A stretch of DNA of 64,000 nt from Bradyrhizobium quebecense (GTDB lineage Bacteria > Pseudomonadota > Alphaproteobacteria > Rhizobiales > Xanthobacteraceae). The stretch is taken from the NCBI RefSeq assembly GCF_013373795.3, contig NZ_CP088022.1:3658001-3722000 (forward strand). The letters run 5' to 3'. A program made the translations under genes and the position numbers. Numbering within the stretch: position 1 is the first letter of the stretch; each line of letters begins with the position of its first letter. The notes below the pieces were generated by a model. The model was given only the letters and a program-made list of their open reading frames with translations. It made no database searches and had not been told where the DNA came from. Shown here one piece after another: positions 21,567 to 24,023 of the stretch.

Positions 21567-21752
21567 ATGTCCCGGACCAGATTCACCGAGGCAGATATTA
21601 AGCGGGCTGTTCGAGGCGTCCTCGACAGCGGCGGTAAGGTCGCGCGCGTCGAGATATGGCCTGACGGACGCATTTCTGTGTTGATTAGAGAAGAAGGATC
21701 GATTCCAATCGATCCTGAAGACGATCCGGAGGTGTCCAGGAGACTGCTGTGA
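21567..21752 (+). CDS. Small protein coupled to the integrase gene
   Basis: 61 residues: MSRTRFTEADIKRAVRGVLD, KVARVEIWPDGRISVLI and an acidic tail. Its stop overlaps the GTG start of the integrase by four bases, so the two are almost certainly co-translated. Small proteins with this TEADI/RAV opening often sit immediately before island integrases in rhizobia; their role is unknown. It might modulate the recombinase. Confidence 0.65.
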   Translation: MSRTRFTEADIKRAVRGVLDSGGKVARVEIWPDGRISVLIREEGSIPIDPEDDPEVSRRLL

Positions 21753-22999
21753 AAAGACCAGGGCGATCTGCGTTATCGTTGCCTCGGTACACTCTGCGCA
21801 AGCGTCTCAGAGGCGGCGGCTTCGCATATTTTTTCAATATCCCGACGTGGGCCCGCAAGCGTGGATGTTCGATCGCGAACGAAGCCCTAGGTACTGACTA
21901 TAAGCGCGCAGTCTCACGCGCAGAACAAATTTTGCTTCCTGCTTTTGATAGTTGGCGCACCCGCGGCGAGGACGCAAGTCCAATCGGCATTGGCGTTGTC
22001 GTCGGCACGCTGGATTGGATGTTTCACCTCTACCGCCAAACCTGGTCTCAGAAAACAGCGAAGCGGCTTCAGCCTTTGAGCCCGGGCCAGTGCCGCGTTC
22101 ATGAGACTGGGATCAAGATGATTTGCGATTACATCCTGCAAGATGGCCGACGATTGGGGGCACGCCGAGCCGCAAGTATCGATACGGCTTTCGTCGATCA
22201 GCTCTTCGAAAAACTGCTCTTCAAAGAAGTGAAGGGCGAGAAGATCGAACGCCGTACGACGGTCAATCACGCGATGAAGACCGCACGTAGCGGATGGAAC
22301 GCCATTTCCCGGGCACATCCAGCCTTGTTTCCACCCCGCAATCCATTCGAAAAGATGGGCCTGCGATCCAGCTCGCGCGAAACGCCGCATGCGACCTTTG
22401 CGGAGCTTGCAGCTTTCCGCGCGAAGGCGATCGATATGGGCTATTCTTCGCTTGCCACCGGTGCGCTGATCGGTTGGGAGCTGCTTCAGCGCGAGGCTCA
22501 TATTTTCATCCGCTTCATGACCGACCACTACCGTCCTCCGAGCCGGCCGAATCACGTCTACGTTATCAACTACAAGACCAGCACCGGATCCTGGGAACCA
22601 CTTTTCAATGCCAAAGGAAGGGCACTCTATCCGCTGCTGATGGCCGAGCTCGACGCAGTCAAGGAGCTGCGCCCAACGGGAGGTCTGATGCTGCGGCGTG
22701 ATGGCAGCAGTCTTCCCTGGTTTGGTAAGGGTGAAATACTGACTCAAGTCCAGCGCATCACGAAGAAAGTTATCTTGGCCGCAGGTTTACGGCCCGAACT
22801 GACTTTCACCTCATTTGGTCGCCACGGCGGCACGACCGAAGCAAGCACATCCGGCCTGACGGAAACACAGCTGATGAAGAAGGGTCAGTGGTCGTCGACA
22901 ATGGCCATGGCGCACTACCTGCACGACGATGATGAAGCCAAGCAGGATGCGCAAATGAAACGCATCAAGCGCCGTGCAAGACAAGCGAAGGGAAAGTGA
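21749..22999 (+). CDS. int: Tyrosine recombinase/integrase of the element
   Basis: Site-specific recombinase, 416 residues, starting with GTG. Catalytic positions visible by eye are Arg248 (WELLQREAH), Lys276 (INYKTSTG), the box-II arginine Arg358 in FTSFGRHGGTTEAS, Trp381 in KKGQWSS, and the nucleophile Tyr390 in AMAHYLHDDD. The usual His of the HxxR box is replaced (S355-F-G-R358), as seen in some divergent integrases. The gene points toward the tRNA-Gly 3' end, 72 bases away, the normal layout for an island integrase next to its attachment site. An upstream 61-residue gene overlaps its start. Confidence 0.88.
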   Translation: MKRPGRSALSLPRYTLRKRLRGGGFAYFFNIPTWARKRGCSIANEALGTDYKRAVSRAEQILLPAFDSWRTRGEDASPIGIGVVVGTLDWMFHLYRQTWSQKTAKRLQPLSPGQCRVHETGIKMICDYILQDGRRLGARRAASIDTAFVDQLFEKLLFKEVKGEKIERRTTVNHAMKTARSGWNAISRAHPALFPPRNPFEKMGLRSSSRETPHATFAELAAFRAKAIDMGYSSLATGALIGWELLQREAHIFIRFMTDHYRPPSRPNHVYVINYKTSTGSWEPLFNAKGRALYPLLMAELDAVKELRPTGGLMLRRDGSSLPWFGKGEILTQVQRITKKVILAAGLRPELTFTSFGRHGGTTEASTSGLTETQLMKKGQWSSTMAMAHYLHDDDEAKQDAQMKRIKRRARQAKGK

Positions 23000-23071: not shown

Positions 23072-23100
23072 TGGAGCGGGTGAAGGGAATCGAACCCTCG
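23072..23100. other. Likely attachment site (tRNA-Gly 3' end)
   Basis: The 3' portion of the tRNA-Gly gene faces the integrase gene, so the crossover (attL or attR) most likely lies in this segment. The other end of the element, with a repeat of the tRNA 3' sequence, is to the left of this window; no second copy was seen within it. The exact core is inferred. Confidence 0.55.
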
Positions 23101-23145
23101 TATTCAGCTTGGAAGGCTGCTGCTCTACCATTGAGCTACACCCGC
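23072..23145 (-). tRNA. tRNA-Gly (UCC)
   Basis: A complete cloverleaf can be folded: acceptor GCGGGTG pairing with the 3' strand, D-stem GCTC/GAGC, anticodon loop CTTCCAA (anticodon TCC), T-arm with GGTTCGATTCC, and an encoded CCA. It is 74 bases with CCA. The gene is intact, so integration rebuilds a full tRNA. Confidence 0.96.
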
Positions 23146-23275: not shown

Positions 23276-23304
23276 TTAACAGCGGCAGATTCGCCACCTA
23301 TATT
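23276..23304 (+). promoter_or_regulatory. Near-consensus sigma-70 promoter
   Basis: TTAACA (23276-23281), a 17-base spacer and TATATT (23299-23304): five of six matches in each hexamer. It drives the structured transcript that begins near 23311. Confidence 0.65.
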
Positions 23305-23338
23305 GCTGGTCCCATCAACAAAGAAAGGAGGTGATCTA

Positions 23339-23383
23339 GTGTCTTGTCTCAAGCGCTGTCACCTCGCTGAGATCGCCCGCTAG
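23339..23383 (+). CDS. 14-codon leader ORF behind an extended Shine-Dalgarno
   Basis: GTG start, product (M/V)SCLKRCHLAEIAR. The ribosome site AGAAAGGAGGTGATC is complementary over 15 bases to the usual 3' tail of 16S rRNA and lies at good spacing. The start codon and first codons lie in the loop of helix A of the surrounding RNA, so translation and folding compete. Function unknown. Confidence 0.45.
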   Translation: MSCLKRCHLAEIAR

Positions 23384-23448
23384 GCTCTGAGTAATCAGCC
23401 TGGCATCGGGGCGCTCTCAGCCCTGACCAGCGAGACAACAAATCCGGG

Positions 23449-23481
23449 GGCGCGGCGGAAGCGATTCCGCCGCGCCTTTTT
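23449..23481 (+). terminator. Intrinsic terminator, 12-bp stem
   Basis: GGCGCGGCGGAA, a GCGA tetraloop and TTCCGCCGCGCC, then five T. The stem is perfect. It ends the small transcript 155 bases before the YCII gene. Confidence 0.88.
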
Positions 23482-23636: not shown

Positions 23637-24023
23637 ATGCTTTATGCCATCCTGGCCTATCACGTCGAAGCCGAGGTCAAGTCGTGGAGCGCCGATGAGG
23701 ACGCAGCCGTCATGGCAGGTCTGCGCGAGGTCCATCAACGGTTGAAGGGGCGGCTCGGCCCGGCTGCACGGCTCGGCGAGACCCGCAACGCCAGCACCCT
23801 GCGCGGGCCCGGCCACGGCATCGTGATCGACGGCCCGTTCTCGGAGACCAAGGAGCAGTTGCTGGGCTTCTACGTGATCGATTGCGCCGATGAAGCAGAA
23901 GCGATCGCCGCGGCACGCGACCTGCGCAGCGTCAACCCGTCGGCGGTCTACGAGATCCGCGCGCTGAAGCTCTACATCCCCGGCGCGCCGTTTCCGGAGA
24001 CCGCGGGCCCGAGCGACGCATAA
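23637..24023 (+). CDS. YCII-related (DGPF-domain) protein
   Basis: 128 residues with the DGPF/YCII fold: MLYAILAYHVEAEVKSW, GIVIDGPFSETKEQLLGFYV and EAIAAARDLRSVNP, ending in a Pro-rich tail. The conserved DGPF motif is intact. A GAGGAGC ribosome site lies upstream. Family members are small dimeric ferredoxin-like proteins, often encoded beside sigma factors; no sigma factor is adjacent here. The biochemical role is unknown. Confidence 0.85.
   Translation: MLYAILAYHVEAEVKSWSADEDAAVMAGLREVHQRLKGRLGPAARLGETRNASTLRGPGHGIVIDGPFSETKEQLLGFYVIDCADEAEAIAAARDLRSVNPSAVYEIRALKLYIPGAPFPETAGPSDA

Follow-up and report, generated by a model that had tools for sequence, protein, structure and literature searches.

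A Bradyrhizobium form of an alphaproteobacterial RNA related to RF01867, with an extended Shine-Dalgarno sequence and a 14-codon reading frame

What might a short, structured transcription unit be doing in the genome of Bradyrhizobium quebecense when it carries a Shine-Dalgarno (SD) sequence matching the 16S rRNA tail over 15 bases and a reading frame of only 14 codons? The question is raised by one locus in the window, by which we mean the whole 64,000-nucleotide stretch of DNA that was analysed. An earlier note on this DNA had described an unrecognised small transcript beside an ICE insertion and had proposed a translation-controlled leader, a regulatory RNA or a ribosome decoy as its role. 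The feature as a whole proved to be real, and its anatomy, relatives and possible role are considered here.

Anatomy and setting of the element in Bradyrhizobium

Analysis of the locus found the near-consensus promoter as it had been described (23276..23304, + strand), with a -35 box TTAACA at 23276-23281, a spacer of 17 nt and a -10 box TATATT at 23299-23304. The transcript of about 170 nt would span 23310..23481 (+), its 5' end being placed from the -10 box and its 3' end from the intrinsic terminator at 23449..23481 (+), for which the previously described 12-bp stem (23449-23460/23465-23476) was confirmed together with a GCGA loop and five T residues ending at 23481. The extended SD AGAAAGGAGGTGATC (23322..23336, +) is followed by the short open reading frame (ORF) MSCLKRCHLAEIAR (23339..23383, +), for which the GTG start at 23339, the length of 14 codons and the TAG stop at 23381-23383 were all as reported. 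The perfect 15-base match, which the note had drawn against an expected 16S tail, also held against the 16S gene of the genome itself, and is exact because that gene (locus L256) ends in GGATCACCTCCTTTCTAAGG. Searching the 9.2-Mb genome for the 15-mer returned two places, the element and the antisense of rrs, and the remaining 19 near-matches had two mismatches each, with no place at one mismatch.

An internal anti-SD, TCACCTC (23359..23365, +), pairs with the GAGGTGA of the SD in both the minimum free energy (MFE) structure and the A1 consensus fold, as the note had proposed for this intra-ORF sequence. A second set of pairings uses TTGTCTC in codons 2-5 (23344..23350, +), in the register of the class-wide covarying helix P1, with GAGACAA (23432..23438, +) just 5' of the terminator, and a P2-like helix of CTCGCTG (23363..23369, +), whose CTC is common with the anti-SD, and CAGCGAG (23428..23434, +), both P2-like strands being invariant in 60 aligned rows. 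The 12-bp mismatch helix of the note probably corresponds to these two pairings taken together, which form an alternative structure in competition with the SD hairpin. The stop codon lies inside the 5' strand of a further hairpin, CTAGGCT/AGCCTGG (23380..23403, +). The predicted fold of the window RNA (-87.5 kcal/mol) was well below that of 200 shuffles (-60.8 kcal/mol, sd 5.0; z -5.4), and forcing the P1 pairing TTGTCTC/GAGACAA gave -84.1 kcal/mol, a cost of 3.4 kcal/mol by which the SD hairpin is favoured.

Across the genus, the core of the element (at most two mismatches) was present in 252 of 265 genomes, with a single match each, and in 246 of the 251 genomes of good quality; an earlier draw searched by blastn gave 57 positives among 59 genomes of the genus. 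The divergent tRNA-Gly (TCC) gene next to it (23072..23145, - strand), which is context outside the RNA, was found by ARAGORN beside the element in 55 of 57 loci, the exceptions being L043 and L194. Conservation beyond close strains, which had been suggested as a check, thus held, and the ICE insertion beside the element proved incidental; the wide occurrence and shared tRNA-Gly neighbour rule out that the element is an ICE part or its cargo. Of 58 Bradyrhizobium loci, 57 retain the promoter pair; measured from CTTNNC, its spacing is 18 in 56 of them and 17 in the other. The sole locus of the 58 lacking it, L043 in G016, also lacks the tRNA-Gly gene and is perhaps a moved copy. The segment GAAAGGAGGTG was invariant in the 60 A1 rows, which were themselves found by homology to the element.

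On the far side, a 416-aa ORF (window 21749-22999, +) abuts the tRNA-Gly gene. It matched no Pfam family at E 0.001 and is presumably an integrase, as both our own reading and the earlier note called it; L030 has a similar ORF at the same place. Downstream of the element lies a YCII-domain protein gene (PF03795; window 23637-24023, +). Elsewhere the next gene is of a different kind: in L064 it encodes an ABC1 kinase, and in L020 a sensor kinase encoded on the opposite strand (Pfam). No common downstream gene occurred among the ORFs listed for homologous loci. A leader or attenuator of a downstream gene, which a short ORF with alternative hairpins and a terminator would otherwise suggest, is therefore extremely improbable, and the translation-controlled leader of the note lacks support on the same grounds, as the next large gene of L020 is on the other strand and the terminator is strong. 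Synteny led us to reject a leader of the YCII gene in particular. An amino-acid attenuator was also rejected, as no conserved biosynthetic gene lies downstream (listed ORFs; three genes by Pfam); by eye, no run of codons for a regulated amino acid was seen in MSCLKRCHLAEIAR or the other printed homolog peptides.

Relation to RF01867 and distribution

At the Rfam gathering threshold the window contained tRNAs only. At a permissive threshold the element was a full-length match (1-159/159) to RF01867, CC2171, at 23316-23476 with 45.9 bits (E 1.1e-8). It is a divergent relative of this family and, by Rfam's rule, not a curated member, because the match is full-length yet short of the 75-bit gathering score. 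The earlier description as unrecognised was therefore half right: a known family does match, at a score that its threshold would not report. Full-length RF01867 matches were obtained in all 16 homologous loci tested, five of them above the cut-off; the gathering score excludes many true relatives, 11 of these 16 loci falling under it. A covariance model built from 45 loci with zero Bradyrhizobium rows (R2, used instead of R1, whose RNAalifold structure had neither P1 nor P2) placed the window element on top at 23313-23481 with 40.9 bits (E 3.5e-10), the next match having 17.8 bits (E 6e-4), and, beyond the window, its 17 best matches fell in the 17 other test loci.

The same 5' end appears in the consensus of the RF01867 model, CAAC-GAAAGGAGGTGATCC-start-TCN, and the structure of that model contains a P1, CAUUGUC/GACAAUG, with the terminator directly after it. 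The Bradyrhizobium form differs in its 14-codon ORF and in that P1 is not evident in most Bradyrhizobium, where the SD hairpin and the stop-codon hairpin stand in its place. RF01867 is filed as an sRNA, and the accessible part of the family entry names no ORF. The name CC2171 reportedly goes back to Landt 2008. That study is cited, in the available portion of the citing text, as the source, by tiling array, of 27 Caulobacter ncRNAs. A literature search including few subscription papers found no functional study of CC2171 or RF01867. A link of the element to BjsR1-10 or to the BjrC sRNAs of B. japonicum was considered and not established; in the new-sRNA section of Hahn 2016 (PMC5082802), as far as available, no link to the locus could be made. 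Elsewhere, Mesorhizobium huakuii MH_s33 is annotated as RF01867 in a study whose accessible part reports 19 functionally annotated sRNAs seen by RNA-seq (PMC5596092), and the available part of another lists RF01867 with one added covarying pair (PMC11701678).

Distribution was surveyed with a strict pattern, AAAGGAGGTGATCNAGTGTC with one mismatch allowed. Within the order it occurred in 105 of 297 genomes and 52 of 122 genera, once per positive genome, and the reversed-pattern control gave 0 matches. Among 22 genomes negative for the strict pattern, 16 had an RF01867 match at E 0.1, which on inspection were 15 true relatives and one chance match; the misses of the strict pattern are in part sequence divergence. 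In the class, RF01867 matched 69 of 289 genomes at E 0.01, nine of them above the cut-off, the weak matches being terminator-like. A draw from the phylum gave the strict pattern in 49 of 299 genomes, all among the 86 that are alphaproteobacterial (49/86) and in 0 of the 213 others. In the control set, Caulobacter vibrioides scored above the RF01867 cut-off and Deinobacterium chartae matched below it, and at the laxer limit of E 0.1 three more distant genomes matched. Plasmid records contained longer matches in Methylobacterium and Skermanella, matches to the first 40 bases in three Azospirillum, and a match to the inner part only in one Streptomyces. A few genomes outside the order (G366, G630, G623) had two or three RF01867-like places, some weak, G366 having two in the phylum draw.

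For comparison, 252 loci were gathered, corresponding to 243 distinct sequences as nine places were fetched twice, and distinct counts are given where it matters; loci without the SD pattern (L215, weak RF01867 matches), the chance match L264 and L241-L256 (repeats and 16S loci) were excluded. In a set of 240 loci, which encode 158 distinct peptides, 148 have AAAGGAGGTGATCCA as SD and the others a similar sequence, starts were GTG in 155, ATG in 82 and TTG in three, and the second codon was TCN in 234; the SD and start codon are partly present by selection, because either RF01867 or a pattern containing an SD had been used to collect the loci. Both an SD and a start were carried by all 29 of the other loci that RF01867 had retrieved in the class search. 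The peptides differ widely across the class.

Helices, ribosome binding site and reading frame

Throughout the class, codons 3-5 pair with the bases before the terminator to form P1, and the strands differ between loci (CAUUGUC/GACAAUG, AUGAG/CUCAU, GUGAG/CUCAC, CACCAAA/UUUGGUG, UCAUAGUU/GACUAUGG and others). Across 119 distinct 5' regions, own partners scored higher than in any of 5000 permutations of the partners (z 12.5), and in two large groups taken separately z was 8.6 and 4.5; no P1 covariation was seen in Bradyrhizobium (11 distinct 5' regions, z 0.3). Related genomes in these and the following comparisons are not independent. L094, in which the terminator was not found, was left out of the helix tests, and alignment A2 is limited to loci whose terminator lies within 165 nt of the start. 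On A3, a hand-picked set of 45 of the 105 A2 rows that includes unpaired rows and carries a P1/P2 structure written on L071, both sides had changed in 12 of 14 P1 and P2 pairs. Cells with changes of this kind numbered 40, where shuffles gave 17.4, and pairing held in 79.7% of cells, compared with 32-50% (maximum 49.9%) when the strands were slid.

In Bradyrhizobium the core, including the SD hairpin, is nearly invariant, with the exception of the stop-codon hairpin. There 91.4% of cells were paired, both sides had changed in four of seven pairs, and the 26 cells with both-side changes compared with 11.7 in shuffles, 0 of 500 shuffles reaching 26. Covariation of the SD hairpin is not possible in A1, because the anti-SD is invariant there. 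The covariation proposed as a check was thus found class-wide in P1 and P2 and within Bradyrhizobium in the stop-codon hairpin, the SD hairpin offering too little variation to contribute.

The SD and its complement could be compared in a Rhizobiaceae-like clade, where 19 distinct sequences (22 loci, three fetched twice: L229, L233, L235, L237, L257-L263 and L265-L275) have GGAAGG or GGATGG as SD. CTTCC occurred within about 25 nt past the stop in 18 of these 19 sequences and in only one of 224 distinct others, and CCTCC was found in none of the 22 loci. The 16S gene of one such genome (G353; L277) keeps CCTCC. In this clade the SD thus appears to track its intramolecular partner and not the ribosome, because CTTCC co-changes with it while a 16S gene retains CCTCC; the co-change belongs to one clade and perhaps reflects one or two events.

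Concealment of the SD is nevertheless no general feature. In 169 loci the predicted unpaired probability of the SD was 0.305 against 0.272 with shuffled downstream sequence (Wilcoxon p 0.005), and SD sequestration was rejected as a class-wide rule because the SD is significantly, if slightly, more open than in shuffles. The groups differed, with values against shuffles of 0.398/0.258 in the MSH group, 0.17/0.21 in the KRCHLA type and 0.26/0.29 in the others. The single-sequence energy of SD and complement, calculated for 158 of the 240 loci (one per peptide), gave a weak signal (p<0.05 in 19 of 158, median 0.17), which leans toward predicted sequestration and is not decisive.

These data bear on the view that the element is a decoy or sink that would sequester 30S subunits through the 3' tail of their 16S rRNA, the ORF and peptide serving only to allow timely release. 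The window element would suit this role, as its SD is unique in the genome apart from the antisense of rrs, the predicted SD:16S duplex (-34.4 kcal/mol) far exceeds the cost of opening the SD region (8.6 kcal/mol), and the peptide shows no sign of selection. Full 16S complementarity, however, is not kept in the Rhizobiaceae-like clade, because there the SD is GGA[AT]GG and the 16S gene seen is canonical, and a pure sink needs neither a fixed stop nor P1 nor the stop-codon hairpin. We consider a decoy unlikely.

Outside the KRCHLA type, the 165 distinct peptides had a mean length of 24.5 aa (sd 2.6). Lengths of 18-30 aa accounted for 96% of these peptides, for 18% of shuffles, and for 7% and 11% in the two other frames. 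In 22 close pairs, a small sample of non-independent genomes, 20 synonymous and 52 nonsynonymous changes made up a total of 72, where 20.3 synonymous changes are expected under neutrality (p 1.0), and changes were distributed over codon positions as 18/30/24. ORF length seems to be kept while ORF sequence is not; judged by this comparison, it is the pattern of an RNA whose ORF would be read but whose product is not what selection keeps.

In the KRCHLA-type ORFs, codons 5-10 and 14 were unchanged, even synonymously, in 73 of 73 distinct sequences, while codons 3 and 4 varied in amino acid; in the wider genus draw, codon 5 differed in at least one genome (G1100). The two cysteines of the window peptide, suggested earlier as a metal or redox sensor, did not bear this out. 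Cys7 was present in all 73, with each base of codon 7 also fixed, but codon 3 encoded Cys in only 23 of the 73 (some of which were fetched by a pattern containing codon 3) and otherwise Tyr, Leu, Phe or Asn, and no peptide-level selection was seen in other homologs.

A base-pairing sRNA, in which the anti-SD or another loop would pair with target mRNAs and the ORF would be secondary, could account for the unchanged codons of the 73 sequences, and it agrees with the filing of RF01867 as an sRNA and with the M. huakuii annotation. It leaves the ORF superfluous, although the frame and length of the ORF are conserved to a degree well above chance, and we regard it as improbable. The accessible Hfq co-immunoprecipitation table of PMC11005374 lists 18 sRNAs by CCNA_R number, by which the Caulobacter homolog is not recognisable. 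Alternatively, the element may be a small mRNA for a functional micropeptide, as the strong SD and fixed ORF length would allow and as the resemblance of S. meliloti SEP1 to the Rhizobiaceae-like homologs might suggest (PMC10117765, accessible part). This appears very unlikely, since the 22 close pairs gave no purifying selection, codons 3-5 follow P1 pairing, and a GGAGCARCCTYC-type motif lies in another frame in seven of the 58 distinct peptides that carry it. As proof of RNA-level function, the frame-independence of this motif was discarded as weak, so few peptides having it out of frame. A type I toxin mRNA, which would encode a hydrophobic toxin peptide kept by selection, does not fit, as the peptides are by eye mostly polar, with no sign of selection.

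A ribosome-gated reading and comparison with known systems

We tentatively favour, as the most plausible reading, a regulatory RNA whose activity or stability would be gated when ribosomes bind and would thereby report ribosome availability or translation, its peptide being a by-product. This reading is favoured because of the conserved unit, the long SD, the fixed ORF length, P1 and P2, and the stop-codon hairpin. In this view the element is the form that Bradyrhizobium carries of a stand-alone RNA, old in the Alphaproteobacteria and related to RF01867/CC2171. It has its own promoter and terminator and is presumably both transcribed and translated in Bradyrhizobium. Its 5' end would present the 30S subunit with an SD complementary to the entire single-stranded 16S tail, and two folds would compete, one joining the SD to the internal anti-SD and the other pairing codons 3-5 with the sequence just 5' of the terminator (P1/P2). 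The footprint of a 30S subunit bound at an SD reaches about 15 nt beyond the start. Binding of 30S and formation of P1 would be mutually exclusive, because this footprint overlaps P1. A 30S subunit on the SD, and then a ribosome reading the ORF to its fixed stop, would break or reset the folds, and ribosome passage would remove the internal anti-SD. Switching between the folds, and any target that the RNA may act upon, are what we infer from this arrangement. A bolder version, which we think somewhat unlikely, is a class-wide and mostly one-per-genome sensor of free 30S subunits, in which engagement of the SD with the whole tail would flip the RNA between two folds that set its regulatory activity, and the ORF would be translated for the sake of translation, its length set while the peptide drifts. 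The regulatory RNA with a translated ORF and the decoy of the earlier note both still stand as readings, the case having been strengthened.

These results indicate that Rfam's "Caulobacter sRNA" family RF01867 is wider than its cut-off shows, and they argue for a rebuilt model. Its relatives carry a short ORF that appears to be kept for length and not for sequence, and in the window this ORF sits behind the only full match to the 16S tail in the genome outside rrs. A kept length without a kept sequence would suggest that, on a stand-alone RNA, translation itself has a function.

A point against the ribosome-gated reading comes from the available part of Schrader 2014 (PMC4117421), which describes ncRNA regions of Caulobacter that are mostly intergenic and not translated, although two earlier ncRNAs are. 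A likeness in description is shown by the S. meliloti small mRNA SEP1, which according to the accessible part of PMC10117765 encodes an acidic peptide of 23 aa (pI 4.18; ATG assigned by elimination) conserved in the Rhizobiaceae, had the top translation efficiency (TE) of 54 novel sORFs and gave a Western-blot band as expected; the Rhizobiaceae-like homologs encode 23-24 aa, nearly all from ATG, several with a pI of 4.05-4.7. The dual-function attenuator sRNA rnTrpL/peTrpL of Sinorhizobium likewise combines a 14-aa ORF with a terminator on a short RNA; as described in the same source, it is leaderless and lies upstream of trpE, in contrast to the long SD of the element and its lack of a linked gene. 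The extended SD motifs of Staphylococcus aureus share the long pairing between SD and 16S rRNA, but are, in the available part of PMC13009471, a general feature of initiation, whereas the element is one transcript per genome.
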